From: Bacillota bacterium
Lineage (GTDB): Bacteria > Bacillota > Clostridia > Oscillospirales > Feifaniaceae
Direction of reading: 5' to 3'
Assembly (NCBI GenBank): GCA_030705925.1
Contig: JAUZPM010000001.1
Span: 62,001-126,000, forward strand
Length of the DNA: 64,000 nucleotides
In this document: one piece after another, positions 3,784 through 42,270 of the stretch
Position numbering within the stretch: the stretch's first letter is position 1
How the letters are laid out: the number at the start of each line of letters is the position of its first letter
The notes under the pieces: generated by a model
The model's database searches: none
Seen by the model: the letters and a program-made list of their open reading frames with translations, nothing else
Told to the model about the DNA's origin: nothing
Position numbers and translations under genes: made by a program

Positions 3784-3784
3784 T

Positions 3785-4858
3785 CTATACCGCCGTCCAC
3801 ATTAGGTATACCGGAGTACAACTGTTGGTCCCGGTTATATACTGGAAATCAATTTGCACAGAATCACCTGGGCAAATATTATGCGAATAAAAATTCCATC
3901 TTTGAACATTCTGACCGTCACTGCATTCCAGCGACTTATATCTGACTACACACCCGGATTGAATTACCGGCGTTGCTCCTAATGGATTACAAGCGACATA
4001 GCCGTTTATTGTTTTATTAAATGACGTATCATTATTAATACAAACATTAAAAAGCGTTTGGGCGCCCCAATTCCCTAAATTATTATAGGGTGAAGGTGAC
4101 GTTTCGCTTGCAATAGGTGCAGGAGATGGCTGAACAATCGAAATGATTTCATTTGTATTTGTCAAAACCTTTCCGATTAAAGAGCATAAGCCTTTATTTA
4201 ATAAAGAACTTATATTGATATCAAAACTGCAATTTAAAAAATAGCTTTCTCCAAGACCAGAGTATGTTGATCCGTCAGTAGCTATATTGCCTAGATAATA
4301 TACTGCATTACCAGTTATCTTTGACTTATCCTTATAAGCATATATAGTTATTATTGCGTTAGAGTCGGCTATAAAACGTAAATTATAAGTAAAAAAGGCG
4401 CCTGTAGGTATACATTCGTCTAATATCCATATGTTCCCGCCAGAGGGTATCGCGTATGTAGTTTCACATGAATTAAAAAAGTCTGTCCAGCTTCCTCCCT
4501 GGACATCCTCCCATGAGTATTCATCTGAACACCTAAAGCCGTAGTTCGTTTTTGTTATCGTGATTTGCGATGCATTAGGATTATATATTTGAACTCCGAA
4601 CATAATAGGCTCGCCAGTTTTATTGATGTAAGATGCAAATAACTGTGATTCACCCGATGTTATATTTTGCTGATTTAAATAAAAATTATTATCAGCGAGA
4701 GCTGCTTCTATAATGTTCTCTGGGTGATTGCAGTAAATCCAAGGTCCCGGGCATTTAACAAAATTGAGAGCTTTACGAATATATTTATCAGTATTCTCAG
4801 GATCAAATTTGCTTATAAGCGAAGTATTACATTTAGGATCTAATATATTTATAGACAT
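3785..4858 (-). CDS. Unrecognised 357-residue cysteine-containing protein
   Basis: I do not recognise this protein. The start is the ATG at 4858, because an ideal AAGGAGG lies just upstream; a longer reading from 4906 would have none. There is no signal peptide or membrane helix. The sequence is rich in Asn, Ser, Thr, Tyr and aromatic residues and reads as beta-structure. About a dozen cysteines are scattered along it, including CPGPWIYC near residues 36-43. A Pro/Ser linker around residues 253-265 (QPSPAPIASETSPSP) separates a first domain from a C-terminal one of about 90 residues. It follows the 105-residue gene at 4872-5189 by 13 bp, so the two form an operon. A spore-surface or other structural role would fit the composition but is only a guess. 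Confidence 0.7.
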   Translation of the reverse strand: MSINILDPKCNTSLISKFDPENTDKYIRKALNFVKCPGPWIYCNHPENIIEAALADNNFYLNQQNITSGESQLFASYINKTGEPIMFGVQIYNPNASQITITKTNYGFRCSDEYSWEDVQGGSWTDFFNSCETTYAIPSGGNIWILDECIPTGAFFTYNLRFIADSNAIITIYAYKDKSKITGNAVYYLGNIATDGSTYSGLGESYFLNCSFDINISSLLNKGLCSLIGKVLTNTNEIISIVQPSPAPIASETSPSPYNNLGNWGAQTLFNVCINNDTSFNKTINGYVACNPLGATPVIQSGCVVRYKSLECSDGQNVQRWNFYSHNICPGDSVQIDFQYITGTNSCTPVYLMWTAV

Positions 4859-4871
4859 TATGATATCCTCC

Positions 4872-5189
4872 TTAGCCCGTTTGAACATTATTTTGAGGTT
4901 TGGCATTATTATTAACTATCTGCATAAACTCATAAAATTCATTTGGTTTAATCCAAAACATATTGCCGGAAATCAAAACTTTATGGTACATATAATCGCT
5001 GCTCATACCTTGCACATATACTGAGCTTATTAAAACTTCTTTTTTCCCGTTTATCAAAAAGGACTTATGATCTGGTGAAAAACTTAATTTGATATTTTGC
5101 GGCTTTCTTACTCTTGAATTTTCAGGTATGTATCTGACATTAAAAACTTTATCAGCGTCATTCTTTTTTAGAAAATTAAATATGGTCAT
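4872..5189 (-). CDS. Unrecognised 105-residue protein, first gene of a two-gene operon
   Basis: A small soluble protein with no signal peptide and no family I recognise. It starts at an ATG at 5189 with CAGGAGG eight bases upstream, and a strong promoter lies just before it. The centre (about residues 30-85) alternates hydrophobic and polar residues as a beta-sheet domain would, and the C-terminus is Asn/Gln-rich. The stop codon is directly followed by the AGGAGG of the next gene, so the pair is very likely made together and may act together. Confidence 0.65.
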   Translation of the reverse strand: MTIFNFLKKNDADKVFNVRYIPENSRVRKPQNIKLSFSPDHKSFLINGKKEVLISSVYVQGMSSDYMYHKVLISGNMFWIKPNEFYEFMQIVNNNAKPQNNVQTG

Positions 5190-5221
5190 AGATACCTCCT
5201 GTTGAAAATATTTCCATTTTT

Positions 5222-5250
5222 ATAATATATTTTCAAATAGACTTTGTCAA
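5222..5250 (-). promoter_or_regulatory. Strong vegetative promoter for the unknown two-gene operon
   Basis: On the minus strand TTGACA (5250-5245), a 17-bp spacer and TATTAT (5227-5222) match the housekeeping consensus closely. The start codon is about 33 bp downstream of the -10 box. Confidence 0.7.
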
Positions 5251-5339
5251 TAAAAATTTAAATAATGATTCAAATAAATATACCCATTAAAAGGTATTTG
5301 TGTTATATTACAATTATAATATGTAAGTGGTGATTAGCA

Positions 5340-7343
5340 GTGGAGAGTTATGATAATGAACAAACAAATAGAGCTTCGAATAAGAACGTTAATTCCAGGT
5401 TTCTAGTATGTATAGGGCCTTCCCCTTCTTCTGCTAAATGTATACAATGGGCCGCAAGAGCCGCCGAGGCATTCAGCTCCCCTTGGACTGTTCTTTTTGT
5501 TGAAACTCCAGGTGAAGAATATTATTCAAAACAGGATAATGATAATATTCAAAAAAATCTAGAGCTTGCGGCAAAGCTCGGCGGTCAAATCACGGTACTC
5601 CCGGGCTATGATGTCGCCGCTACAATAGCTGAGTATGCTAAACTTACCGGAATAACTAATATTGTTATTGGCAAAAGCAGAAAAAGAAAAAACATAATTA
5701 ATTTTTTTGAAAAAAATTTAGAGGACAAGCTTCTATTACTGCTGTCTGACATAGAAATTTATATTTTACCAGATAACAGTATTAAAACTTATAGAAAAAC
5801 AAAGTTATCAAATTTGCTGAAAAACCTGTATTTTTCTTGGATCGATACATTTAAAACAGTTGTAACACTAGTTATTACAACACTGTTATCCTTGGCTTTA
5901 AGAGAGATTGGACTGGGCGATCAAAATGTAATGCTGCTTTATATCCTTTCTGTATTAATTGTCTCGAGAATTACTTCTGGTTATATCTACGGTGTAATTG
6001 TGTCTTTACTAAGTGTACTACTTTTAAACTTTTTATTTATAAAACCCTATTATACTTTTAATATTACTCAGCAGGGATACCCTTTAACCTTGCTAATTAT
6101 GCTTTTAGTGGCGTTTATAACAAGCGCTTTAATGCTTCGAATGAAAGCTCAGGCTAAAAATGCCGTTTCCAGAGAAAGAAAAACCGAGGGTCTCTATGAA
6201 ATAAACAAAAAACTTCTTGCAACAAGAGGGTTAGAAAATATAATAAACTTAACAAATGATTATATTAGCAAATTATTCGATCGTTCAGTGGTGTTTTATT
6301 CCAGCGACCCCGAAAATGGCGGAAAAGGAATTCTTACACAGTCGGAAAAAGACCCAGACGCATCTGCCCTTTTAAACTCTGATGAAGAAAAAAAGGCTGT
6401 GCACTGGATCTTTATGAATAAAAAACGCGCAGGGGCGGGCACCGATGCTTTCACCTCTGCACAAGCATTATACATGCCAATATTATCGCAGGGAAACGTT
6501 TTAGGCGTGTTTGGGATATCATGTTTGAATGGATTAAAACTCAGCCATGAAAATAGTGTTTATTTAAGAGTAATCTCATCATTAGTTGCAATGGCTCTTG
6601 AAAGACAACATTTATCGGATGAACAAAGAACTATAATAATCGAGTCAGAAAAGGAAAAAATGAGAAGTAATTTGCTTCGTGCAATATCCCACGACTTGCG
6701 AACCCCTCTAACTGCTATTTTGGGGGCAAGCTCAGCCATTCTAGAGAATAAAGATATCGGTCTGCAAACGCATAATAAACTTGTAAGCGGTATAAAAGAG
6801 GATTCACAGTGGCTTATAAGAATGGTTGAAAATCTTCTTTCGGTTACTAGGATTAATGAATCTTCAATGAATGTCAAAAAATCGCCTGAGGCCGTAGAAG
6901 AAATAGTTGCAGAATCAGTATTAAGAGTAAAAAGTAAATTTAAAGACTGCAATATAAAAGTGTCTGTCCCAGATGATCTTCTTATCGTCCCTATGGATGG
7001 GACTTTAATCGAGCAGGTCATCATAAATCTTTTAGAAAACGCTATTAAACACACTCCTGAAAATTCTATGATTGAATTAACTGTTAGTAAATCAGGTAAC
7101 TCGGCCGTTTTTCAAGTCTCAGACAGCGGAAAAGGGATTTCAGAGCAGGATTTGCCATATATTTTTGAGGGTTATACAGCTAAAAACAATCCTGACTCAA
7201 CCCGTGGTATGGGTATAGGCCTTTCGATATGTAGGACCATAGTTACAGCACATGGAGGAAAAATCGAGGCTGAAAACAAAGCTGGCTCTGGCGCGATATT
7301 CAGATTTATACTTCCGATAGAGGAGAATAAGTTTAATGAATAA
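5340..7343 (+). CDS. kdpD: KdpD-like sensor histidine kinase lacking the N-terminal KdpD domain
   Basis: Membrane sensor kinase paired with the next gene. Order: a universal-stress-protein-like domain (about residues 20-140), four closely spaced membrane helices (about 175-270, the DUF4118 region), a GAF-like domain (about 290-430), HisKA with phospho-acceptor His in SHDLRTPLTAILG (about 450), and an ATPase domain with NLLENAIKHTP, DSGKGI and GMGIGLSIC. Classic KdpD proteins have about 890 residues; this one has 667 because the first ~200-residue KdpD domain with its Walker motifs is absent. GPSPS followed about 20 residues later by WTVLF resembles the motif through which Firmicute KdpD binds c-di-AMP. 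The start is a GTG at 5340. The last 8 bp overlap kdpE. No kdpFABC transporter genes are in the window. Confidence 0.88.
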   Translation: MESYDNEQTNRASNKNVNSRFLVCIGPSPSSAKCIQWAARAAEAFSSPWTVLFVETPGEEYYSKQDNDNIQKNLELAAKLGGQITVLPGYDVAATIAEYAKLTGITNIVIGKSRKRKNIINFFEKNLEDKLLLLLSDIEIYILPDNSIKTYRKTKLSNLLKNLYFSWIDTFKTVVTLVITTLLSLALREIGLGDQNVMLLYILSVLIVSRITSGYIYGVIVSLLSVLLLNFLFIKPYYTFNITQQGYPLTLLIMLLVAFITSALMLRMKAQAKNAVSRERKTEGLYEINKKLLATRGLENIINLTNDYISKLFDRSVVFYSSDPENGGKGILTQSEKDPDASALLNSDEEKKAVHWIFMNKKRAGAGTDAFTSAQALYMPILSQGNVLGVFGISCLNGLKLSHENSVYLRVISSLVAMALERQHLSDEQRTIIIESEKEKMRSNLLRAISHDLRTPLTAILGASSAILENKDIGLQTHNKLVSGIKEDSQWLIRMVENLLSVTRINESSMNVKKSPEAVEEIVAESVLRVKSKFKDCNIKVSVPDDLLIVPMDGTLIEQVIINLLENAIKHTPENSMIELTVSKSGNSAVFQVSDSGKGISEQDLPYIFEGYTAKNNPDSTRGMGIGLSICRTIVTAHGGKIEAENKAGSGAIFRFILPIEENKFNE

Positions 7344-22218: not shown

Positions 22219-22707
22219 TTATATCTTTATTAACTGTGTTGTAAGTTTCACATTCCCCGTTAAAACATCCATTTCCAAAGTTCTGCTTAACCTTCCTGAA
22301 ACTTCTAAAGCTTCATATTTTACATTAATTTTAGATAGTTCATCCTTAACTGCTGATAAATTCTTCTTCCCGATTTCAAAAACATCATTAACATCTGAAG
22401 AGTCAGCTCCTCCAAATAATCTTACCTGAAGACTGCTCTTGTTGCATCCGTATTTATTGCATATTAAATCAAAAAAAAATGGAACTGCTAATGTCGCATA
22501 GTAACATGGTTTATTTATATTTATATCGTATTTTAAACCCGGATTAGGTAGTGCAATATGTGCCATACCGGCTATTTTTTTATCTTGCGAGTAAACTGTT
22601 ATACCCACACAAGACGCAAGCGCAAACGTTTTTATAACATCTTCTATATCATTAGATATCGCATATTCACCAAGTCCAACAATTTTATTCACTATATCAC
22701 CGTTCAT
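22219..22707 (-). CDS. cheD: Chemoreceptor glutamine deamidase CheD
   Basis: CheD deamidates specific glutamines of chemoreceptors and, with CheC, takes part in adaptation. The 162-residue protein has all three catalytic residues at the family spacing: Thr27, Cys33 (in LASCVGI) and His50 (in GMAHIALP). RLFGGADS further on is also typical. The start overlaps the end of cheB by 11 bp. No cheC gene is seen in the window. Confidence 0.95.
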   Translation of the reverse strand: MNGDIVNKIVGLGEYAISNDIEDVIKTFALASCVGITVYSQDKKIAGMAHIALPNPGLKYDININKPCYYATLAVPFFFDLICNKYGCNKSSLQVRLFGGADSSDVNDVFEIGKKNLSAVKDELSKINVKYEALEVSGRLSRTLEMDVLTGNVKLTTQLIKI

Positions 22708-23704
22708 TTAATAATTTGTAAATTACCTCTGAAATTCTGTCAAGTGGTGCCTGCTCTTCAACTGCTCCAATATCATAAGCCACTTTAGGCATTCCATAAA
22801 CAATACTTGACCCCTCATCCTGCCCTGCTGTCCTGGCACCGTTGCTTCTCATAGCAAGAAGACCCCGAGCTCCATCGCCGCCCATTCCGGTAAGGATTAC
22901 TCCTATTGCTTCCTTGCCTGCCTTTTCTGCAACCGAATTAAAAAGTACGTCGACAGAAGGACAATGCCCGTTAACCTTATCGCTTTTAAAGCATATTATT
23001 TTATAAGCTTCTCCAGCCTTTTCTATTTTAATATGCTGATCGCCGGGAGCAATAAAGACGCACCCCTGTTTTACAATATCCCCGGTCTGCGCCTCTTTAA
23101 CATTAAAATGTAAAGTTTTATTAAGCCTCTCAGCATACATTTTTGTAAATCCAGGAGGCATATGCTGTACAATAACTATACCAGGAACGTCACCCGGAAG
23201 CAGCTGTAATACTTTGATAAGCGCCTCAGTTCCCCCGGTAGAAGACCCAATTGCTATTATTTTGTGTTTCCAGAAATGTTTCGATCGAATTTCGGTTTCT
23301 TTATTCCATTTTGAAAGATCTGCTGTTAATGAAATTTTGATTTTAATTTTTAATTCATTTATTAAACTCTCAAAGATAACATCATTTTTCTGGTCAGGTT
23401 TTTTTATAATATCAGCAGCACCCGATTTAACTGCTTCAGAAGTGTTTTTATTGCCAGATACCAGCATTACAACGGGTAACGGATGCTGGGGCATAAGCTT
23501 TTTCAAAAATTCTACTCCGCTTAAATCTGGTAGATCTTCATCAAGAACGAGCACATCTGGCTCATACTCAACTATTCTATTTCTTGCTTCGACTGCATCA
23601 TAAGCAGATGGAATAATTTTAATACCAGGATCAAGTGACAATCCTTTTATTATTACATCAATATATACATAATTACTGACAACCAAAACCTTTATTATCT
23701 TCAT
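22697..23704 (-). CDS. cheB: Chemotaxis methylesterase CheB with an altered receiver domain
   Basis: CheB removes methyl groups from chemoreceptors. The 335-residue protein has a receiver domain (1-120), a linker and a methylesterase domain (about 147-333) with Ser155 in GSSTGG, His181 in VQHMPPG and Asp277 in GMGGDG. Phospho-acceptor Asp55 is present in VLDEDLPDLSG, and VSG plus KKP stand for the Thr/Ser and Lys. However, the acidic pair that binds Mg2+ near residues 10-11 (VDDS in usual CheB) is replaced by VVSNYVYID, so phosphorylation may be weak or lost. The start is an ATG at 23704, 3 bp after the cheR stop. Confidence 0.93.
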   Translation of the reverse strand: MKIIKVLVVSNYVYIDVIIKGLSLDPGIKIIPSAYDAVEARNRIVEYEPDVLVLDEDLPDLSGVEFLKKLMPQHPLPVVMLVSGNKNTSEAVKSGAADIIKKPDQKNDVIFESLINELKIKIKISLTADLSKWNKETEIRSKHFWKHKIIAIGSSTGGTEALIKVLQLLPGDVPGIVIVQHMPPGFTKMYAERLNKTLHFNVKEAQTGDIVKQGCVFIAPGDQHIKIEKAGEAYKIICFKSDKVNGHCPSVDVLFNSVAEKAGKEAIGVILTGMGGDGARGLLAMRSNGARTAGQDEGSSIVYGMPKVAYDIGAVEEQAPLDRISEVIYKLLNER

Positions 23705-23707
23705 TGC

Positions 23708-24523
23708 CTAATCCTTTCGGTATATTGATGGCATAACATATTTAAATTTAAAATTTCCTCTATTCAAGCATTCGGAATGTCCTATAAAAAGATATCCTCC
23801 CGGGTATAAGGAATTATAAAACTTATTGATTAAATCCCGTTTAGTTTCCTCGTTAAAATAGATCATAACATTTCTGCAAAATATAACATGAAATTCCCTT
23901 TTAAACGGAAAAGCCGCGTTATTTAAATTAAAAAATCTAAATATCACTTCTTTTTTCACTTTTTCACTTATAACGCTTATTTCATCATTTATCTGACTAA
24001 AATAATTTGATTTCCATTTTGATGGCAAAGGCTCAATATCTTTATTATCATATTCGCCTTTTTTGGCGATATCAATGACCCTGCTTGATATATCAGTTGC
24101 TAAAATATTAGTGTCCCATAAATGTTTTTCCATTCCAAAATAATCAAGCATTATCATTGCAAGTGTGTAAGCCTCTTCACCGGTAGAGCACCCGGCGCTC
24201 CACACCCTGATGTCTTTATCTGTTACAGAGTCTTTTAATTGCGGTAAAACCGTGTCCCTAAAATAATAAAAATGATCTGGTTCTCTCATAAAATATGTAT
24301 GATTTGTTGTAATCCTGCTCATTAAATTTGAGGCAGCTTGTCCTGTATCATCAGATAATATATAATCATAATATTTTGAAAAGCTATCGAAATTTAGTTG
24401 ATGCAAAATGCCCTGAAGTCTTCCCTCAACAAGAGTTCTTTTACCTTCACCCAGTTTTATACCGTAGTTTGATAAAATATAGTCGGTTAAAAGCTTATAT
24501 TCTTTATCTGCTATATTAACCAT
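23708..24523 (-). CDS. cheR: Chemoreceptor methyltransferase CheR
   Basis: CheR methylates receptor glutamates using S-adenosylmethionine. The 271-residue product has the N-terminal helical domain (about 1-75; LLTDYILSNYGIKLGEGKR) and the Rossmann methyltransferase domain with RVWSAGCSTGEEAYTLAM (about 105-122), NILATDIS and FCRNVMIYF. A region at about 205-235 corresponds to the beta-subdomain. It is the first gene of a cheR-cheB-cheD transcript. Confidence 0.95.
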   Translation of the reverse strand: MVNIADKEYKLLTDYILSNYGIKLGEGKRTLVEGRLQGILHQLNFDSFSKYYDYILSDDTGQAASNLMSRITTNHTYFMREPDHFYYFRDTVLPQLKDSVTDKDIRVWSAGCSTGEEAYTLAMIMLDYFGMEKHLWDTNILATDISSRVIDIAKKGEYDNKDIEPLPSKWKSNYFSQINDEISVISEKVKKEVIFRFFNLNNAAFPFKREFHVIFCRNVMIYFNEETKRDLINKFYNSLYPGGYLFIGHSECLNRGNFKFKYVMPSIYRKD

Positions 24524-24623: not shown

Positions 24624-24651
24624 TTGCATATTTTAAAAATAGATTTATAAT
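24624..24651 (+). promoter_or_regulatory. Promoter of the riboswitch-controlled gene
   Basis: TTGCAT at 24624-24629, a 16-bp spacer and TATAAT at 24646-24651 would start transcription at about 24658, immediately before the riboswitch aptamer. Confidence 0.6.
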
Positions 24652-24660
24652 GTAATTACA

Positions 24661-24750
24661 AATATCTCCGATAATGGCAAACCTAACGAAAGTTAGAGAC
24701 GCAAAGCCACGGGTCTAAAGCTTTATGCCATGATAGCCGGGCTGCCGAAG
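24661..24750 (+). promoter_or_regulatory. Cyclic di-GMP-I (GEMM-I) riboswitch aptamer
   Basis: The sequence shows the conserved GEMM-I core in order: ATAATGGCAAACC, a GAAA tetraloop hairpin (CCTAAC GAAA GTTAGA), GACGCAAAGCCACGGGTCTAA, and then ATGATAGCCGGGCTGCCG. This class binds cyclic di-GMP, the second messenger that switches clostridia between swimming and surface attachment. The gene under its control codes for a secreted repeat protein. The 305-bp gap between cheR and that gene holds this element, two promoters and the terminator below. Confidence 0.92.
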
Positions 24751-24754
24751 AATT

Positions 24755-24799
24755 ATACAGTTCAATTCTGTATGCTTTTTCGGCATGCAGTTTTTTTTT
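24755..24799 (+). terminator. Riboswitch expression platform: terminator with competing antiterminator
   Basis: CTGTATGC (24768-24775) pairs with GCATGCAG (24783-24790, one G-T) around a 7-base loop, followed by nine T, which makes an intrinsic terminator. ATACAG at 24755-24760 can instead pair with CTGTAT at 24768-24773 and break it. Which structure the ligand favours cannot be read from the sequence alone. Confidence 0.8.
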
Positions 24800-24828
24800 G
24801 GAGAAAAAAAGAAAGGAATGCATGCTGT

Positions 24829-26151
24829 ATGAAAAAGGTATTTGTTCAAATTCTGTCTTTTGTTCTTGTCCTACTAATGTCAACGTCCGCTTTTGCGGCA
24901 TCCGGTTCGGGCAAAGGAAACAGCAAATCTGAACAATCCCAAACCCCAGCAGTACAAAACGAAAAAGGAACTTCAGCGCAGGAAACAACAACAGAAACAA
25001 ACAGTCAACAAAAAGAAAAGGCAACGGCTCCAGCAGTGCAAAGTTCTGATAATCAAGAAACAACAGTCAATTCTAACGATCAAAAATCAGACAAGCAAAA
25101 TGAAAAAGCTGTAGAAAACAGTCAAAAAGAATCGTCTTCAACAACCGACACTTCCAGCGGAGATGCGAAGGACGAAAGTTCCGGTGACCAAGCTAAAAAT
25201 AAATCAGAATTACAAAAACAGTTTAAAACAGAGCTGAACGAAGAAAGAAAAGAAATTGTAGATCAAAAAAATGATTTGACTTCACAAAAAGAGCAGCTCG
25301 AGGAAAAATATAATGAATTGGTTGCTGCTGGAGATACTGCCGGAGCACAAGCTGTTTTGGACAGCATAAACAACTTGGATACTCAGATAGATGATTTAGA
25401 AGCTCAAATAAAGCAGGCTAACAATGAGAGATATATGGTAGTTAAAACTATATACTCAGATGAAGAACTTTCAACTTTTGACAGCGCTGCAGATCTAATA
25501 AAGCAGATGTATTCTGACGCTTATACACTTGATGCAGGCAGTGTAACAATTAATAATAACTTAATAAAGTTTGATGCTCCCCCGTACATAAAAGGAGGAA
25601 CGACACTTGTTCCAATTAGAGCGATTACCGAAGGGCTAGGCGCACAAGTTGCATGGAACGATGATACCAAGACTGTTACAATAACTAAGGACAACACCGT
25701 AATAGAATTGACAATAAACAGTTCAACAGTGCTTAAAAATGGTGCTCCTGTTGATATGGGTACGGATGCAGAAATAACCTGTGGAAGGACATATGTTCCT
25801 CTTAGATTTATTGCTGAAGCATTAAACCTAAAAGTCACCTGGGATAGCGATGATAAAATTATAGATGTTGATAATGAAAGCGATACAAACCCACCATCAA
25901 CAGGCGATGACACAACGGTAGATAATTCAACTCCTGGATCAACCGATACTTCTGGATCAACCGACACCTCTGGATCAACCGATACTTCTGGTGCTACAGA
26001 TACTACAGGCACCACAGATATTTCCGGTTCAGTAAGTAATTCGACAGGCACCACGACCGCTGATGATTCTAATACTTCAACCAACGAGGAAGCAACGAAT
26101 GAAAGCACAATAGGTTCTGATGGGAATGCTGAAGGCAGCCCCTCTATATAA
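24829..26151 (+). CDS. Secreted protein with coiled coil, copper-amine-oxidase-N-like domain and Ser/Thr repeats
   Basis: The start is the ATG at 24829 (440 residues), after the terminator and an AAAGGA site; the longer frame from 24730 would run through the riboswitch. A signal peptide (about 1-23, ending AFA) comes first. Residues 25-130 are a low-complexity Gln/Ser/Thr/Lys segment and 135-200 are a charged coiled coil. A domain like the N-terminal domain of copper amine oxidases (about 225-350) has the doubled motif VPIRAITEGLGAQVAW / VPLRFIAEALNLKVTW; these domains are common in clostridial wall proteins and are not enzymes. The tail is Ser/Thr/Asp-rich with tandem repeats. No sortase motif or SLH domain is seen, so the anchor is unclear. 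With c-di-GMP control, an adhesion or matrix role is likely. Confidence 0.85.
   Translation: MKKVFVQILSFVLVLLMSTSAFAASGSGKGNSKSEQSQTPAVQNEKGTSAQETTTETNSQQKEKATAPAVQSSDNQETTVNSNDQKSDKQNEKAVENSQKESSSTTDTSSGDAKDESSGDQAKNKSELQKQFKTELNEERKEIVDQKNDLTSQKEQLEEKYNELVAAGDTAGAQAVLDSINNLDTQIDDLEAQIKQANNERYMVVKTIYSDEELSTFDSAADLIKQMYSDAYTLDAGSVTINNNLIKFDAPPYIKGGTTLVPIRAITEGLGAQVAWNDDTKTVTITKDNTVIELTINSSTVLKNGAPVDMGTDAEITCGRTYVPLRFIAEALNLKVTWDSDDKIIDVDNESDTNPPSTGDDTTVDNSTPGSTDTSGSTDTSGSTDTSGATDTTGTTDISGSVSNSTGTTTADDSNTSTNEEATNESTIGSDGNAEGSPSI
25936..26025 (+). repeat. 18-bp tandem repeat in coding sequence
   Basis: Three close copies of GGATCAACCGATACTTCT (25936-25989) and two decayed ones (to 26025) encode GSTDTS-type hexapeptides in the tail of the secreted protein. 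Such tracts can change copy number between strains. Confidence 0.85.
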
Positions 26152-26180: not shown

Positions 26181-26210
26181 ACACCGTTATTTTTTAACGG
26201 TGTTTTTTTT
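26181..26210 (+). terminator. Intrinsic terminator after the secreted repeat protein
   Basis: ACACCGTTA (26181-26189) pairs with TAACGGTGT (26195-26203) and is followed by T8. Confidence 0.9.
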
Positions 26211-26224
26211 ATAGTCCGTGTAAC

Positions 26225-33185: not shown

Positions 33186-36100
33186 TTAAGAAGCATGCTT
33201 AGTAAAATAATTGTACAGCATTTGCGCTGTTTCTGCTCTTGTAGCGGTACCTGTCGGGTTTATTTTTCCTTCAGTTCCATTTATATAGCCGTTTGCCGCA
33301 AGAAGCAGAATGTCGTCTTTGGCGTAATCAGCTATACTGTCAGAATCACTGAACGTTACCTTAGATATGTCCGCTTTTTCGTCTAACAGATTGAACGCTC
33401 TTAGTGTCCTTGCGAACAGAACGAACATATCCTGTCTTGTTACATTAGTCTTAGGATTAAATGCTCCATCAGACCCAGTTGCAATACCTAAGTCTTTAGC
33501 TGCTGCAACCGCGCCTGCGTAATATGCATTTGGATCAACATCGTTGAACGTTCCGGTGCCAGACTTGTCACCGGCAAAAGACCTCATCAGCATAAGCGTA
33601 AAGTCTCCGCGATTTACTGTCGCATCAGGCTTGAATGTTCCATCCTCATAGCCCTTAATGATACCCTTATCCGCAATATATTTTATAGCTTCACTTGCCC
33701 AGTGATTTGAAGTATCGGAGAAATCAGGTGTAGAAGCATTGCCTTCGGTAGGCGCAGTCGTTCCGCTATCTCCTGTAGTACCTCCGGATGTATCTGTGCC
33801 GCCTGAAGACCCACTTGATCCATCCGCACCCCCCGATGTGCCTCCGCTGGCACCCGAGCTGCCGTTATCAGTATCAATATTTAAGTCGCCTGACCCAACT
33901 GAAAATGTGTACGTTGCAACCGTTTTATCAGAATCATTAAGAACTTCAACAACTGCAGTTGCTCCGGTTTTATTAAGGTTTAGCGTCGGGAACGTATTTC
34001 CTGAGCCTGCGTCTATAAATCCGCCGCTGCAGACCTTAACTCCGTTTATTTTTAAGTTTAATGTTGGACATTTGGTTTCAGGAATGCATGTTACACTTTT
34101 AACGCCCTCAGGAACCGAAACGCGATAGCTTGTATTCTTATCACTTAAATTCACATTTGTTTCTCCGCCGGCGTATACAAGTTTAACCGAACTCAGTGAA
34201 TAATCGTTGCTGTAATTCGGAACCTGACCCTCGACGACAACTCCCGGTGTCGGAACAGCCCGATTGCTTAGTTTGATACTTGTATCTATTCCTGTTGAAT
34301 TATAAGTATATGTAATACCCTTATTTTCAACAACATCCAAGTTAAGGCTCTCGTCAACATTATACTTTATGCAGGTTATAGGCGTTGGACTATCTGTATC
34401 ATCATTAAGGTTTACAGACAATATTCTTGATCCTGACTGATCCAGTGGAGACTTAACAAACTGGTAAATGGTATCGAAATTGGTTCCGTAGTATTTGTTG
34501 AAATCCGCTACAGTAAGCGAGTTATTCGCCCCGGCTGTAATCCCGTCTTTAATCCATAGAACCATTGCCTGACGAGGCCCGATCATTAAATCTTCACTTA
34601 TTGAGTACTTATCTAAATACTTTGCCGTATTATATGCTGCAGTCTGACCCGCTTTTACGAAGGTGGAGATTGCAAGCCCCTTTAGATTTCGAGCAACATT
34701 ATCATTATTGTATACTTCGATATAATTGAATGGGCGGGAATATACGACACCGCCTTTCACGTAATCCGAACTGTCAGCTACAATCTCCGTTATATAAATT
34801 GGCGAAGGCGTGATATATTTGACATCTCTGATCAGTTTTCCATTCACCACACCGCTTAGCAGTACAAAAATTCGTCTGCTGTCAAGGCTTCGCGGCATAT
34901 TAACTCCAACGGTCGCTGTTTCGCCTGCTCCAAGTGAGGATAGGCTGCGAACTGCAAGGGGCTGCAAACCGTTAAGCCCATTTATTATATCGCTGCTGAG
35001 TGTAAAGCCATCAACTGTTCCCAAATAGTATGATAAAGTTAAATTTGTCGCATTATCATCCGAAGTATTTTTGACTATGGTTTTAACCGCGTCAGGGTTA
35101 GCTGTATCGCTTGACAATCCAAGATCGAGCGAATCAATGTTGATCCCACGTTCTTTTTCGACCCAGACAGGCGCTGTTATACTTGTAATAGTCGACGCTC
35201 CAACTGTCCTCGTATGCTTAATATAGCAATACTTATAATCCGCTGGAAGCTGATACTGCATATGTATAACTCCGTTTACCGCATCCGCTGCGGTGTAAGT
35301 TTTCTGGAATACCGTTACCTGCGCATCTGTAACTATGCTAACAGTGCCAGCTGGGATATTGTTGATATCTTTGCCGTAAATTTTCAAATCAATATCCAGC
35401 TTATCCGGATCTTTGAGGATACTTCCCATCCATTTTCCGTTAACTTTATACTCCATTATTATATTGTCGTCACCGGCAGCATAGGTTCTGTTTTTCCTGA
35501 ACGCTTCAATTATATTGTCCCGCGTAAGTGCGGGTGCCATAGCAACTCCGGATGACGGATCAGCCGACCCCCAGAACATCTGATGATTATCCTCGTTAAC
35601 GACTGGGGATACATGCCAACCTTTAAACAATGCGCGGTTGTACTCATCATCATTGCTTACATTGGCATTGAATTCTATAAGTGCAAATTTATCATCAGCT
35701 TGTGTTGAATAATATCCAAAGTCATTGAAGTCGCCCCAGTTGTTTCCGTCATAATTGCCGGGATGGTTAAACTGCATGACCGCATTTGGATCTGCAATTC
35801 CGAAATCGTAATACTGACGTGCAGGTATCGAAGGATCAGATTTAAGCCAATCCACATTAAGCATATTAAAGTGACCAAACCAGCCAGTATTCATATAATA
35901 AGTAGTTTCCCATCCGTTGAACACGATAAATCCGCCAGGGCCGTTTTGATTATACTTTTTAGTTCTCTTAAGCTGATTCTTATACACATCAGTGGTAAGC
36001 ATATCATTATGATCCGTAACTGAGAAATAATCGAGCTTGCTATGATATCTAGCCCACTCATATGCCTGTTCCACGGTTCCTGTTCCGTCCGATTCCTGGG

Positions 36101-39100
36101 TATGACTGTGAACTTCTCCACGATAATGATTTAATTTTGAATCGTCTCCGATTGAAAATTCAGTTACCTGAGTTAAAACATTTTTATTTTCAGACAAGTC
36201 TGCCGCTACAAGTTTCAGAGTATGCCGGCCATCCGCAATTGCAACTCCCGGTGTGTAAGCAACGTTAAATCCGCGGTCTTGCTCTAAAATTACTGTATCC
36301 TTAGTCTCATCAATATCATCCATATACAAGTGGATACTTGCCTTGTTTATACCTGAATTATCCTCAATATATGCTTTCACTACAGGGATCTTTGAGTCCT
36401 CGTAAAAGTAGTAGTTTTCAGGCTTAAAACTTCCAACCTGCGGAGGGGCTACATCTTTATACGTTATAGTGAATGGATCACCGCTCTGACTTTTGAGAAC
36501 TGCCTCATGAAGCCCGTCAGTTGCTGCAAAATAGTATTCAAGTTTATTAGTATATTGCAGATAATCATAGCTTACCGTAAATTGGAACAAGTTATCTTTT
36601 CCTGCAACCGGTGTCAGATCACCGGTCTGCCATCCTTCAGTACCATACGTTCTGTAGTAGATAGACTTATGGATTATCTCAGCTTCATCAAATATCTGAA
36701 CAGTAAGTGTTATTTCCTGAGGAGCAGCTCCGTCGCTTACCGGTTTCTGATGAATAATATATGGTGCATACTTATCGTTATAATTTACTGCTTTCTGCCG
36801 CCAATCTATTTTGCCGGGGGTAGCCACAGCACCATGTTCGAGTTTGTGTAAATTAATCGTACCATCTATAGGTGCCCCATAAGTGACAGACAAACCGTTA
36901 AGGGAGTCGCTGTACCCAGCCGAAAGCTCATCATTATAAGTAGCTACACATATATAAGGTCCAACGTTGGGATTACTTTTATAATTCAGCATTACTTTTC
37001 TTACCAGTGTGTTTGGCAGCGGACACCTGTTAGAATCTACTGATGTATCAGCCGGTAGCTCTATAACCTTAGTATTGCTTTCTGATAAGTTGATTCGGCT
37101 GTCTTCACGGAAGGAATCGAGCGTCATCCCTGTTTTACGTGCATCAGAAGTAAATAAATGAACTACAACCACTTCACCCGGGTTAATAATATACTTTCCT
37201 CCGCTGAACCCGTATGAATCCATCATCATATCAAAATTAACAAAACGATAATCATTTGGTGCTGTTTGCGGATATGGCTGGAAGTTGATCTTATAATTCA
37301 TCAGGTCAAGTTCTTTATTGCTTGTGTTATAAATCTCTATGAATTCAACATCATCGTTGCCATCCGGGTTCGGCTGCATTTCGGTTATCATAAGCTCCGG
37401 CGGCACCGTCGCAGCCTGAAGTGCAGTCTGATACCAGCTTCCGTCTGAAGATGGTGCCCTCATTTCTGTATTTCCACTGCTTGTTATACAATACTTAACG
37501 TACGAACGCCCCTTAATCACAGAAACAGGAATGCTTGCAGTGTAATACGTTGATGCAACTCCGTTTCCGGCAGAGCTTAACGCAGTATCTTTTGCCATTG
37601 AAAGAGTCCCGGATTTCCCGTCATCAGTAATATACTGCAAAGTCAGATTGTTTGAATCACTGCTATCGATTACGAGAGCCTGAACAGCAAGATCCTGCGA
37701 GTCAATTGTGCTGTTCATTGGGGCATGTATGATTTCCTTAGAAGGCATATGATCATTGACTATTGGTATCAAATTAAAGCTATTTTCATGAATTGCAGTT
37801 CTCTGCTCCGGATATTTTCCGTCAACTTCGGTTCCGTATTTATCGCTTATCTGCAGTTTTGAGGTATAAGCCCCAATCTGTGTTAATAAACCCATATTAT
37901 ATGTGAGTTTATAATCACTTATTGAGCACTTATCCGTAACATCCTCGCCGTTGAACCAAAACTTGATTGAGTTTTTATCTACGCCCGAATAATCACTATA
38001 AGTTATGACTATCTGACCGTTGATTCTTCCTTGAATATTCGCGCCGTTAGCAGGTGTTATTGAATCTATATGCGGTCCCTCTGTATCTGCTATCGTCTGT
38101 TTATATGGGTTATCTATAAACTGCGGGGCAAATGCTGAACTTGCGCCGTCTGTAGCAATTATATAATACTCAATACTTTTACTGTCTTTAATAGCATTAA
38201 TTGATATGCTTACACGATACTCATCAGCATTTTCAGTCTTAGCCATTTGAGCGCAGCTGAATCCACTCATTTGATCAGTTTTATAAAACAAATAAACAAG
38301 TTTAATATCATTATCCGGATCTGTTACCTTCGCGGTAAATGTCGTATCGTCCGGTTGCCTTACTGCTTCGACTTCACCGCAGTCTACAGAGGGCGGCGCA
38401 GTACTCGTAAAGTTTGGCTGCTGGTAATCACGCAGAGTTCCAGGAGTCGGCGAACCCGTATAATCAACCAGTAGTGATTCACAATTATTTACGGGATCGC
38501 AGCCATCGAAATAAACATAATCGATTGTCTGATCAGTTGCGCACTGTACAGCGCCGTCGTTATAAACTGCCTGGCAAAGAACTGCCTTCGTTGATTTATC
38601 AACAATTTGCATTGTCTTTGCATTGATACTGTTCCACAGGTTTGCAGCGCCTTTTATTACAGTTCCGTTACTGTCTGTATAAGGCGCCATAATTCGATTT
38701 GTCTTTGGAATTTCAACGCCGTATCTTGATTTGAACAGTTCGTTCCATGTGCGCTCCATTTCCGCATCTGAATCATAACGGTAACCTAGCTTTTGAGCGC
38801 CCTGCTGATAAATAAAGACTACATAAATCTGATTCTTTTTAAGGACAAACGGCACCACATTGCCCTTATCATCATATTGAGTCTCCGTGACCCACGGGTT
38901 GGTGTATACTTTACTCAAATCAGATATATACGGCAAATAATTAAACTGAACATCGCTAAGCGGGATATCACGGTTCCCTGTATTATACAGTTCAAAATAT
39001 TCCAGGTTTCCTGTTCCGCCCGGTGCAGCATTCACCTCGGTCATAACTAGATCAGGGCGTTTCACCGCTGCTTCCGTAACAGTAATATGTACAGTTGCCT

Positions 39101-42100
39101 CGCCCGCCGCTTTTTCAGTGTTTTTACTGTTTACTTTAACAGTTATCGTATGATCGCCCTTTGTTAGCGGGTGGCTAGCAAATGAGTAGGTAAGCGTTTT
39201 ATCTGTAACATTTTCTGAAGGAACTGCAATAGGCGTGCCGCCGTCGACTACTACTTGGGCAGTTGAAGCATCAATCCCGTCACCATCCACAAGGTCAGCT
39301 GTAAGGGTATCTCTGAAATATCCGCTGAAACTTTCGCCCTCAGTGGGTGAGGTAATATTAACAATAGTATGATTTGAACTTTCATTTATCATTCTATGCG
39401 GCATAGCGCTGCTGCCAAGTGTTGCAGTATTTCCGCCGCCATCTATTGCTGTTACATAATAATCGATATAGTCGACGTCAGTAAGTTCCTCTGCGGTAAG
39501 CGAAATATTCTGTTCTGCCAGCTGCGTGTCTGAAGCAACTGAGCCTTTTTGAGCTACATAGTCTATCGATTTTGATTTAAAATCCGTATCCTTAGAAGTC
39601 TTATAATAAATCGTCGAATATCTTAAATCACGGTTATCAAACATATTGATTGAAATCTTTGCCCCGTCAGCAGACTTAAAAGATGAGCCGGTATTATCCG
39701 TTATTTCCGCGGCTGTTTTATCAGATACGTATATAGGCTTTTGATCATAGGTTATTACTCCAAGATTGCTCTGGGAAAGCTTTTCAGAAACCGGCAGATA
39801 ATTTTTTGCGGAATCATACTTGAATTTAACAGATGAGTTAACGGTACTTACATCAGAGCCAAAATATTTCGCGACAGACATAATATCACTGTCGTCATCA
39901 ACATATTTTAAGCGGTTGGCCTCCGATACTGTTGCGGAAGAGTCGAGCATCAAAAGCATAACACGCGTTGTACTGCCCACCCTCTTTAAATAAATATTTT
40001 TAAACTTATTGAATGAAACGCCTCCGTCGGATGCTGATTTTGGCTCCGGCTCTGCGGCAGCAGATGTCTGATCATCTCCGGCATTTAATCCGTATGTATC
40101 TTCCGCTAAGAAAAGTGAATCTTTATTAACAGTTGGATTTTCCGAAATGAAGCTATCAACACCTAGAGCCTTGAAAGCGGCCGCATCGGTAAACTTGCTC
40201 ATAGGATAATACCTTACCCATAAGGTGGCTACTCCATTTGCGGGAAGCCAGTTGCCTCCGCTTGGCTCAGTATTTCCGCTCCATGCAGCCGAATATTTAG
40301 TGATCCCGTTCATTCCGGTATAATATGTATTCGTTAAATTTGCTATATCCCCGTCATAATTTCCGGCTCCAGGCCAGTCTGCTTTTCGTCCCAGCTTATA
40401 ATTATTAAGATTTATCGGATGCCCGCTTGCATTATATATCTCAACCGCCGAGTATGCATCCACGCCTTGAACCTGAGTCGTGTAAACTTTTGCCTCGGTT
40501 ATCATAAGGTCTGGATAATCTCCGTCCTTGGTCGAACTGCCTTCAGTTACACCGATCGTTACAGTCGCCTCGCCCGAGTCCTTACTTTGGTTGGTGCTAT
40601 GAACCTGAAGTTTTATTGTATGTGTGCCGACTCCGAGAGGATTACCCGCGAAGGAATAAGTCAGAGCTGTATTTGATACATTCTGAGCAGGAACTGAAAT
40701 AGGCGTGCCGTTGTCCACTGTAATTGTCGCAGAAGAGGTGTCTATCCCATCCTTATCAGACAAATCTGCTGTAAGGATCCCATTGAATGATCCTGTGAAT
40801 ACCGACATATCCACTGGATAGGTTATAGCAACGTTTGTTTTTGAAACAGCCGTTGCCGCGTTTATTCTGATGGGTGCGCTTGCGCTCCCCACAGCGGCCG
40901 GATTGTTTCCTCCGTCCAATGCAGTTGCATAATATTCGATATAATCGGCTCCTGCAAGATCTTCCGCCGGAATATTCTTTGCAATATCCGCCTTTGTTAT
41001 GTCTGCTGCAATGCTGTTCTTTTTTGTCTCGCGAAGAACTATATCCTCTGAAGCCTCTTTAAAAGCCGTATCTTTTGATGTTCTGTAAAATAGGGATGTA
41101 AGTCTAATATCTTTGTCGTCGGTAACTCCGATCGTTATATCAGCACCGTTATCCGGGTTGTAAGTGCTTGCTGTTACATCAGACATGACAGGAGCATTTG
41201 TATCGTTATATGTCGGTTTTTGCTTATAAGTCATTGTTCCGACTGAGGGTGCAGTTTTGCTTTCAAGTATCATGCTCTGATTTTTGGATAGATCGTAATA
41301 AAATTTTGCAGATGATACGCCTGCAGTGGAAGTGCCGCCGTCGCTTGTCAGATATGTTACATCGCTTCCGAAATATCTAGCATATGATATCATATAAGCG
41401 GCATCATTATCCGTATATTTTGCTGCCGAGCTCTCATCCTCAGCTGTCGCATCGGGTGTTAACAGCATAAGCATAACCCTGGTTGTAGATCCCGGATTAT
41501 CTAGCAAAAACTGACCTCTGTATTGGTTGTCTACCCCGGCTCCAGTTGTTGAACTCGTCAAAGGTTTAGCATCTAATGTATCCCCGGGAAGAAGTCCGTA
41601 ATCGTCTTCACACAAAAAAGTATAATTTGTATTGGCATCTGGATAAATCGCTTTCAAGTCATCTTTATCAAGCGCTTTAAAATCAGTAAAATTTGTTATT
41701 CCAGTCGTATAATAACGCACCCAAAGCGTCGCGACACCGTGTGCCGGCAGCATGCAGTCTCCGCCCGCGTACTCTCCCCAGGCACGTGAATCTGCGGTAA
41801 TATCGTTTATACCTGTATATGAAACGCTTCCAGTAACCGGTGTTACGTAATCATTCACACCGCCAGGCCTTGTGACTGATGTCTGCCAGGTATTTTTACG
41901 CCCCACCTTGTAACCCTTTAAGTTTATGCTGCTATTGGTAGTATTGTACACCTCAATTATGTCATACCCGTCTGCTGAAGTAGTCACACCCTCAGGTTTA
42001 TATGAGGAATTAACAACTTCAGTAATTATGAGTCCTGGATATGAACCGTCTGTTCCCATGACTGATATTGGTGAATCCTTTGAATTAGCATAAGAAGTTC

Positions 42101-42212
42101 CGCCAGTTTGAGTCCCGGAATCGTCATTTGCAGCATAGGCGCCAAGAGGCATCATAGTTGCAACCATTGCTATAACCAGAATAACGGACAGCACGCAATT
42201 TAATCTTTTCAT
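33186..42212 (-). CDS. Giant SLH-anchored surface protein with lamin-tail domains and a PHP-type metal phosphoesterase domain
   Basis: A 3008-residue exported protein; the ATG at 42212 follows GGAAGGGG. A signal peptide (about 1-28, ending AYA) is first. Five lamin-tail-like domains open with related strings near residues 50, 565, 1055, 1605 and 2475 (for example PDLMITEAK, PELMITEMQPNPDGNDDVEFIEIYN). Between them are Ig-like or chitobiase-type beta-modules (DNRDLRYSTIYYKTSKDT and similar). Around residues 2030-2265 is a PHP/CehA-like domain with metal motifs VHSHTQESDG, SVTDHNDM, FNHPGN and NEDNH. A Gly/Ser linker leads to three SLH repeats (about 2835-3005). The gene is last in a glycan-use operon, 58 bp after the ROK kinase gene. 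The SLH end fixes it to the wall; the PHP part may hydrolyse phosphoesters, and the lamin-tail units may bind substrate. Confidence 0.88.
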   Translation of the reverse strand: MKRLNCVLSVILVIAMVATMMPLGAYAANDDSGTQTGGTSYANSKDSPISVMGTDGSYPGLIITEVVNSSYKPEGVTTSADGYDIIEVYNTTNSSINLKGYKVGRKNTWQTSVTRPGGVNDYVTPVTGSVSYTGINDITADSRAWGEYAGGDCMLPAHGVATLWVRYYTTGITNFTDFKALDKDDLKAIYPDANTNYTFLCEDDYGLLPGDTLDAKPLTSSTTGAGVDNQYRGQFLLDNPGSTTRVMLMLLTPDATAEDESSAAKYTDNDAAYMISYARYFGSDVTYLTSDGGTSTAGVSSAKFYYDLSKNQSMILESKTAPSVGTMTYKQKPTYNDTNAPVMSDVTASTYNPDNGADITIGVTDDKDIRLTSLFYRTSKDTAFKEASEDIVLRETKKNSIAADITKADIAKNIPAEDLAGADYIEYYATALDGGNNPAAVGSASAPIRINAATAVSKTNVAITYPVDMSVFTGSFNGILTADLSDKDGIDTSSATITVDNGTPISVPAQNVSNTALTYSFAGNPLGVGTHTIKLQVHSTNQSKDSGEATVTIGVTEGSSTKDGDYPDLMITEAKVYTTQVQGVDAYSAVEIYNASGHPINLNNYKLGRKADWPGAGNYDGDIANLTNTYYTGMNGITKYSAAWSGNTEPSGGNWLPANGVATLWVRYYPMSKFTDAAAFKALGVDSFISENPTVNKDSLFLAEDTYGLNAGDDQTSAAAEPEPKSASDGGVSFNKFKNIYLKRVGSTTRVMLLMLDSSATVSEANRLKYVDDDSDIMSVAKYFGSDVSTVNSSVKFKYDSAKNYLPVSEKLSQSNLGVITYDQKPIYVSDKTAAEITDNTGSSFKSADGAKISINMFDNRDLRYSTIYYKTSKDTDFKSKSIDYVAQKGSVASDTQLAEQNISLTAEELTDVDYIDYYVTAIDGGGNTATLGSSAMPHRMINESSNHTIVNITSPTEGESFSGYFRDTLTADLVDGDGIDASTAQVVVDGGTPIAVPSENVTDKTLTYSFASHPLTKGDHTITVKVNSKNTEKAAGEATVHITVTEAAVKRPDLVMTEVNAAPGGTGNLEYFELYNTGNRDIPLSDVQFNYLPYISDLSKVYTNPWVTETQYDDKGNVVPFVLKKNQIYVVFIYQQGAQKLGYRYDSDAEMERTWNELFKSRYGVEIPKTNRIMAPYTDSNGTVIKGAANLWNSINAKTMQIVDKSTKAVLCQAVYNDGAVQCATDQTIDYVYFDGCDPVNNCESLLVDYTGSPTPGTLRDYQQPNFTSTAPPSVDCGEVEAVRQPDDTTFTAKVTDPDNDIKLVYLFYKTDQMSGFSCAQMAKTENADEYRVSISINAIKDSKSIEYYIIATDGASSAFAPQFIDNPYKQTIADTEGPHIDSITPANGANIQGRINGQIVITYSDYSGVDKNSIKFWFNGEDVTDKCSISDYKLTYNMGLLTQIGAYTSKLQISDKYGTEVDGKYPEQRTAIHENSFNLIPIVNDHMPSKEIIHAPMNSTIDSQDLAVQALVIDSSDSNNLTLQYITDDGKSGTLSMAKDTALSSAGNGVASTYYTASIPVSVIKGRSYVKYCITSSGNTEMRAPSSDGSWYQTALQAATVPPELMITEMQPNPDGNDDVEFIEIYNTSNKELDLMNYKINFQPYPQTAPNDYRFVNFDMMMDSYGFSGGKYIINPGEVVVVHLFTSDARKTGMTLDSFREDSRINLSESNTKVIELPADTSVDSNRCPLPNTLVRKVMLNYKSNPNVGPYICVATYNDELSAGYSDSLNGLSVTYGAPIDGTINLHKLEHGAVATPGKIDWRQKAVNYNDKYAPYIIHQKPVSDGAAPQEITLTVQIFDEAEIIHKSIYYRTYGTEGWQTGDLTPVAGKDNLFQFTVSYDYLQYTNKLEYYFAATDGLHEAVLKSQSGDPFTITYKDVAPPQVGSFKPENYYFYEDSKIPVVKAYIEDNSGINKASIHLYMDDIDETKDTVILEQDRGFNVAYTPGVAIADGRHTLKLVAADLSENKNVLTQVTEFSIGDDSKLNHYRGEVHSHTQESDGTGTVEQAYEWARYHSKLDYFSVTDHNDMLTTDVYKNQLKRTKKYNQNGPGGFIVFNGWETTYYMNTGWFGHFNMLNVDWLKSDPSIPARQYYDFGIADPNAVMQFNHPGNYDGNNWGDFNDFGYYSTQADDKFALIEFNANVSNDDEYNRALFKGWHVSPVVNEDNHQMFWGSADPSSGVAMAPALTRDNIIEAFRKNRTYAAGDDNIIMEYKVNGKWMGSILKDPDKLDIDLKIYGKDINNIPAGTVSIVTDAQVTVFQKTYTAADAVNGVIHMQYQLPADYKYCYIKHTRTVGASTITSITAPVWVEKERGINIDSLDLGLSSDTANPDAVKTIVKNTSDDNATNLTLSYYLGTVDGFTLSSDIINGLNGLQPLAVRSLSSLGAGETATVGVNMPRSLDSRRIFVLLSGVVNGKLIRDVKYITPSPIYITEIVADSSDYVKGGVVYSRPFNYIEVYNNDNVARNLKGLAISTFVKAGQTAAYNTAKYLDKYSISEDLMIGPRQAMVLWIKDGITAGANNSLTVADFNKYYGTNFDTIYQFVKSPLDQSGSRILSVNLNDDTDSPTPITCIKYNVDESLNLDVVENKGITYTYNSTGIDTSIKLSNRAVPTPGVVVEGQVPNYSNDYSLSSVKLVYAGGETNVNLSDKNTSYRVSVPEGVKSVTCIPETKCPTLNLKINGVKVCSGGFIDAGSGNTFPTLNLNKTGATAVVEVLNDSDKTVATYTFSVGSGDLNIDTDNGSSGASGGTSGGADGSSGSSGGTDTSGGTTGDSGTTAPTEGNASTPDFSDTSNHWASEAIKYIADKGIIKGYEDGTFKPDATVNRGDFTLMLMRSFAGDKSGTGTFNDVDPNAYYAGAVAAAKDLGIATGSDGAFNPKTNVTRQDMFVLFARTLRAFNLLDEKADISKVTFSDSDSIADYAKDDILLLAANGYINGTEGKINPTGTATRAETAQMLYNYFTKHAS

Positions 42213-42270
42213 ACTTTCCCCTTCCAACCAGCTAAAAATTTAATGGATTAACTGAATGTAAGAACCTATA

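Follow-up and report, generated by a model that had tools for sequence, protein, structure and literature searches.

A GEMM-I riboswitch with competing terminator and antiterminator folds precedes a Cu_amine_oxidN1 protein gene and is predicted to be a c-di-GMP OFF switch

A GEMM-I aptamer in the leader of a Cu_amine_oxidN1 gene

In an Rfam covariance search, RF01051 (c-di-GMP-I, or GEMM-I) was the only family above threshold within the window, the 64-kb stretch of DNA analyzed here. The match covered the full model and scored 82.8 bits against a gathering score of 35 (E = 8.3e-15), bearing out the first-pass annotation of a c-di-GMP riboswitch. The aptamer ends 79 nt before the ATG at 24829 and lies on the same strand; it is thus in the 5' leader of the downstream gene. 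The encoded 440-amino-acid protein contains one Cu_amine_oxidN1 domain (PF07833, 130 bits), and its signal-peptide-like start and Ser/Thr-rich ends agree with the secreted Ser/Thr-repeat protein proposed earlier. Between aptamer and gene, a terminator previously placed at 24768-24799 was recovered as a hairpin (24768-24790) followed by nine T. A second hairpin and T-run 3' of the gene suggest a one-gene transcript. The features of the locus are as follows.

22219-24523, minus strand: divergent cheR (23708-24523), cheB (22697-23704) and cheD (22219-22707), in the neighborhood and outside the switch
24624-24651, plus strand: candidate promoter read from the sequence, TTGCAT (24624-24629), 16 nt, TATAAT (24646-24651), with a poor -35
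24666-24749, plus strand: c-di-GMP-I (GEMM-I) aptamer, RF01051, 82.8 bits
24744-24745, plus strand: aptamer junction J1/3 (G24744-C24745), assigned by position from the cGAMP aptamer (PMC6274999)
24744-24752, plus strand: antiterminator outer helix, 5' strand GCCGAAGAA, overlapping the aptamer 3' end
24755-24760, plus strand: antiterminator inner helix, 5' strand ATACAG, complementary to CTGTAT (24768-24773)
24768-24790 with T-run to 24799, plus strand: intrinsic terminator from the terminator scan, CTGTATGCT-TTTTC-GGCATGCAG and nine T
24768-24775, plus strand: terminator 5' arm CTGTATGC, its first six bases being the inner antiterminator 3' strand
24776-24784, plus strand: antiterminator outer helix, 3' strand TTTTTCGGC, comprising the terminator loop and the first bases of the 3' arm
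24783-24799, plus strand: terminator 3' arm GCATGCAG and U-tract
24812-24817, plus strand: likely ribosome-binding site AAAGGA, read from the sequence
24829-26151, plus strand: controlled gene, 440 amino acids, with signal-peptide-like start, coiled-coil-like part, Cu_amine_oxidN1 domain and Ser/Thr-rich ends
26181-26211, plus strand: hairpin and T-run 3' of the gene, from the sequence; the terminator scan listed it for the minus strand

Transcription may begin near 24658, judging from TATAAT at 24646-24651 and the weak -35 element, and the element's first-pass start at 24661 agrees with such a transcript. The TTGCAT/TATAAT pair was absent from the promoter-scan output. In the fold predicted for read-through RNA, the closing helix is a 10-bp complement between the leader 5' end (24658-24667) and codons 3 to 6 (24836-24845). 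An alternative start was also considered: a SigD-type promoter lying over the aptamer, TAAT-N15-TCCGATAA (24648-24674), would give aptamer-less transcripts that escape c-di-GMP. This stretch resembles a SigD consensus; however, the pattern occurs at background frequency genome-wide (12 sites versus 13 for the reversed pattern), and CCGATAA is also ordinary pre-aptamer sequence in relatives. We consider such a promoter extremely improbable and rejected it.

The aptamer 3' end and the terminator are predicted to form one long hairpin

Minimum-energy folding of 24744-24799 yielded a single hairpin: AUACAG/CUGUAU forms the inner helix, enclosed by an outer helix of GCCGAAGAA and UUUUUCGGC. The outer helix has nine pairs, joins 24744-24752 to 24776-24784, and draws on the terminator loop plus two bases at the start of the 3' arm; the six inner pairs occupy the terminator 5' arm. 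In these folds, the antiterminator excludes the terminator. At -20.4 kcal/mol, the hairpin was far more stable than shuffled sequences (-6.9 ± 2.1 kcal/mol; 0 of 200 as stable). When GCUGCCGAA was held constant and the remainder shuffled, none of 1,000 sequences reached the observed antiterminator energy. The terminator was assigned -10.8 kcal/mol alone and about -13.3 kcal/mol with its flanks in the folding models.

This preference depended on the first bases of the outer helix. With 24744-24747 withheld from pairing, the terminator (-13.3 kcal/mol) was favored over the residual antiterminator (-7.4 kcal/mol), and withholding GCCGAA likewise favored the terminator, with model probabilities of 0.91 to 1.00. 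These results bear on the earlier suggestion that ATACAG at 24755-24760 takes the terminator 5' arm, and on the stronger reading that the ATACAG/CTGTAT hairpin alone is the antiterminator through which the ligand acts. The complementarity to CTGTAT at 24768-24773 is indeed exact, and the inner hairpin is found within the minimum-energy fold. However, it is merely the inner tip of an antiterminator that spans approximately 24741-24786, and it lies outside the ligand pocket. On its own it reached -6.1 kcal/mol and lost to the terminator, whose probability once complete was 0.999 to 1.000 in RNA free to pair from 24749 or later; for RNA pairing from 24747, the value was 0.91 at 24790 and 0.98 at 24799. 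As modeled, ATACAG contributes to the switch but is insufficient alone, the decisive outer helix having been missed in the first pass; control by the inner hairpin by itself is highly improbable.

Competition for ligand-pocket bases predicts an OFF switch

The pairs defined by Rfam stop at 24743 and are compatible with most of the antiterminator (-39.8 kcal/mol). Mutual exclusion of antiterminator and ligand rests instead on the ligand contacts and on P1, which appears weak here by eye. In the related 3',3'-cGAMP aptamer, J1/3 comprises G74-C75, of which C75 contacts the ligand, and P1 starts at C76 (PMC6274999). G74-C75-C76 correspond by position to G24744, C24745 and C24746, all of which are taken by the outer helix, and exclusion of the ligand-bound aptamer depends on this mapping. 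Since ligand and antiterminator compete for these three bases, the sign should be OFF. Class I switches of Clostridioides difficile are described as uniformly OFF (PMC6200980).

The opposite sign, in which c-di-GMP promotes read-through, would fit the weak P1, and GEMM-I aptamers are able to drive ON switches, as at pilM (PMC9262584). The only strong alternative pairing, however, prevents termination by using ligand-pocket bases, which ties the ligand to termination and makes an ON switch very unlikely.

We therefore favor, with a probability of about 0.85, a transcriptional c-di-GMP OFF riboswitch in which, on the modeled folds, ligand binding and antitermination would be mutually exclusive. 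Without ligand, the aptamer 3' end (24744-24752) would pair with 24776-24784 around AUACAG/CUGUAU, both terminator arms would be occupied, and the surface-protein gene would be transcribed. With c-di-GMP bound, G24744-C24745 and the start of P1 would be retained in the aptamer; the weak inner hairpin would remain, the terminator would displace it, and transcription would stop at the U-tract near 24799. The ensemble energy was -44.4 kcal/mol for the free RNA versus -33.6 kcal/mol for aptamer plus terminator. Because this gap of about 10.7 kcal/mol exceeds the likely payment from ligand binding, control must be kinetic, exerted during transcription.

A further pairing is available downstream: the terminator 3' arm and U-tract complement the ribosome-binding-site region (24783-24825, where GCATGC is repeated). 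If freed in read-through RNA, they could mask the ribosome-binding site (24784-24825), giving dual transcription-translation control in which the translational effect opposes the transcriptional one. The hairpin, at -11.4 kcal/mol, keeps the site mostly paired in antiterminated RNA (about 18% unpaired), and incoherent dual control is reported for Bacillus thuringiensis Bc1 (PMC11218506). Nevertheless, 150 of 1,000 and 42 of 1,000 shuffles were equally stable, which is not above chance, and by eye GCATGC near the start codon is missing from two homologous loci (L126 and L138). Dual control is thus quite unlikely, and the hairpin was rejected as a translational element.

Homologous switches precede three kinds of genes

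When 24640-24850 was used as a BLAST query against the order (394 genomes), 28 genomes gave matches, mostly to the aptamer alone. The best matches after the window itself (L126, L127 and L128) came from three genera of another family. We built a covariance model from the window and these three sequences and ran it on 300 genomes of that family (E up to 0.001). It matched 80 genomes, with only six matches above 100 bits, namely, the three training sequences and three new ones (L138, L139 and L140). The next match, L165 at 92 bits, has a 3' half of another design and was excluded from the platform comparison; this GEMM-I copy (G575:C22:24031-24167) precedes a gene for a CAP-domain secreted protein and sets terminator GGCAACC against aptamer GGGTTGCC.

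All seven platforms, window included, defaulted to the antiterminator, which lay 3.1 to 9.6 kcal/mol below the terminator. When the first five bases were withheld, six of the seven formed the complete terminator, and L140 formed the terminator minus its outermost pairs. Shuffling strongly supported the antiterminators of the window, L126, L127 and L138 (0, 1, 0 and 3 of 500 shuffles as stable, respectively) and weakly supported those of L128, L139 and L140 (20, 16 and 38 of 500). The terminator 5' arm varies among platforms (CTGTAT, CTGTGT, CTGCGC), with matching changes, by eye, in the preceding strand and the 3' arm. Among GEMM-I copies of relatives more broadly, 84 of 101 were used to survey terminator design, the other 17, mostly the weakest, being left out. 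A terminator lay within 130 nt of the aptamer in 27 of the 84, and the minimum-energy fold paired the aptamer 3' end with the terminator beyond one pair in just 3 of these 27 (the window, G082 and G116:C41b); the idea of a terminator design common to these copies was dropped.

Three kinds of genes follow the seven platforms: a Cu_amine_oxidN1 gene (window, L126, L138/L170), a cNMP-binding/DUF2225 gene (L128 and L139/L168 by Pfam, L140 by its sequence), and fliE-fliF, about 400 nt downstream (L127/L167). In the last genome (G389; L167:3202-3331; 2465-5694), the homologous switch lies between fliE-fliF and a divergently oriented flagellin gene.

The window protein is 52% identical to the L126 protein and 47% identical to the L170 protein. 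A profile built from these three was run on the 300 genomes of the other family and the 394 of the order, two sets that overlap. Matches of some kind occurred in 192 of the 394 genomes, the domain being common, and full-length orthologs were found in just four genomes (G000, G360, G501 and G161). It is with these full-length orthologs that GEMM-I is linked, lying directly upstream in four of four. Two of the three profile members had been found via their riboswitch, which leaves G161 as the only independent test of the gene link. There, the RNA model matched 92168-92298 and the gene occupies 91020-92105, both on the minus strand. The G161 platform has another sequence, which likewise allows the aptamer 3' end GGUUGCCGAAAA to pair with terminator UUUUUGGCAAUC while the terminator is still incomplete. 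Given a GEMM-I directly upstream of every one of the four full-length orthologs found, the Cu_amine_oxidN1 secreted protein gains a predicted regulator. In the literature searched, neither copper amine oxidase-like nor stalk-domain proteins were found linked to GEMM-I or c-di-GMP riboswitches, nor was any account found of the reused platform and the conserved target gene.

The cheR, cheB and cheD genes are divergent from the switch, as first noted, and cheW and a chemoreceptor gene also lie on the minus strand. The claim built on this arrangement, a junction between swimming and surface-protein expression, was not supported. No che genes were seen among the ORFs read at three other ortholog loci (L166, 9.0 kb; L170, 7.5 kb; L173, 4.1 kb), so the chemotaxis junction is probably incidental, merely neighborhood. 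Pfam neighbors at these loci included amino-acid permease, hydrogenase, Coat F, Mn catalase, SLH, Suv3-like helicase and Tad proteins. Near the G360 ortholog, as in the window, lie genes for an amino-acid permease and a hydrogenase-type protein, and in G161 the ortholog is flanked on either side by Tad-pilus-type genes. The predicted OFF sign, moreover, implies that production of the protein would accompany swimming at low c-di-GMP rather than replace it, placing the protein in the swimming state. The genome encodes nine GGDEF domains, flagellin (two matches) and FlhA (one), and the source organism likely has both flagella and c-di-GMP synthesis.

Ligand selectivity

A G at selectivity position 20 is typical of c-di-GMP aptamers, and an A marks the cGAMP-type variant. 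The window aptamer has G at this position, which we take to be G24676 in ATGGCAAACC. An A was found in L126, L138 and L173, and in 20 of the 84 aptamers examined, two of the 20 being in the source genome. Enzymes that make cGAMP carry S at a diagnostic position of the GGDEF signature. We surveyed 51 GGDEF matches in four genomes; 30 loci were examined, and the signature was readable in 23 and unread in 7 (L220, L221, L225, L228, L229, L234 and L236). Among the 23 readable signatures in these four genomes, 22 had D, 1 had N (L235) and none had the cGAMP synthase S. Position 20 is reported to influence selectivity without acting as a strict filter (PMC9262584). We take the presumed ligand to be c-di-GMP; these sequences lend no support to cGAMP sensing by the A20 relatives.

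Given G here and A at three other orthologous loci, the same gene might answer different dinucleotides. A broader scenario incorporates this point: a portable cassette of aptamer and platform may have been copied before unrelated genes in two families of the order, adding a secreted surface protein to the motility regulon, with the same gene answering c-di-GMP in one lineage and 3',3'-cGAMP in another. We regard this scenario as unlikely. The use of one platform before unrelated genes is a small case of riboswitch regulon growth.

Comparison with known systems

The aptamer shares sequence and structure with RF01051 riboswitches and shows no difference of its own; together with the OFF logic, it belongs to an ordinary, textbook class. 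What is now specified base by base is the hairpin that would couple ligand to termination. Among the closest parallels, Cd1 in the flgB leader of C. difficile has a class I aptamer, a transcription terminator and the OFF sign, and its antiterminator is reached only by losing ligand binding (PMC9262584). Cd1 controls flagella, whereas the switch described here precedes a secreted Cu_amine_oxidN1 protein gene, although homologous L127 precedes fliE-fliF; the comparison covers features other than the Cd1 platform sequence. B. thuringiensis Bc1 likewise joins a terminator to a class I aptamer, with possible pairing over the ribosome-binding site, but it has two terminators, of which T1 is unfolded by ligand (PMC11218506), while the present switch has one terminator and a second pairing within shuffle noise.

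L003 and L005, two further GEMM-I copies in this genome, resemble the present switch in having a terminator stretch complementary to the aptamer 3' strand. In these, the terminator is the minimum-energy fold, and its 5' arm (GGCAACTG, GGCGACTGG) is directly complementary to the aptamer. In the window, by contrast, the loop and 3' arm pair with the aptamer in one long hairpin, which is the minimum-energy fold.

Elsewhere in the genome, L005 and L002 (C64:10748-11035) stand in tandem upstream of a type IV leader peptidase gene (PF01478), separated by about 200 bases; position 20 is A in the first aptamer and G in the second. L006 (C19:31419-31504) is the weakest of the six copies in the genome (52.9 bits), with no ORF of at least 80 amino acids within 450 nt downstream. 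L003 (C20:7040-7123; L008:6621-6938) precedes a gene for a secreted-looking 105-amino-acid protein without a Pfam match. L004 (C10:19386-19469; L009:5571-7325), with A at position 20, lies 61 nt before a gene for an SLH-domain protein. Within the window, a surface protein of 3,013 amino acids with SLH, lamin-tail and cadherin-like domains is encoded at 33186-42227 on the minus strand.
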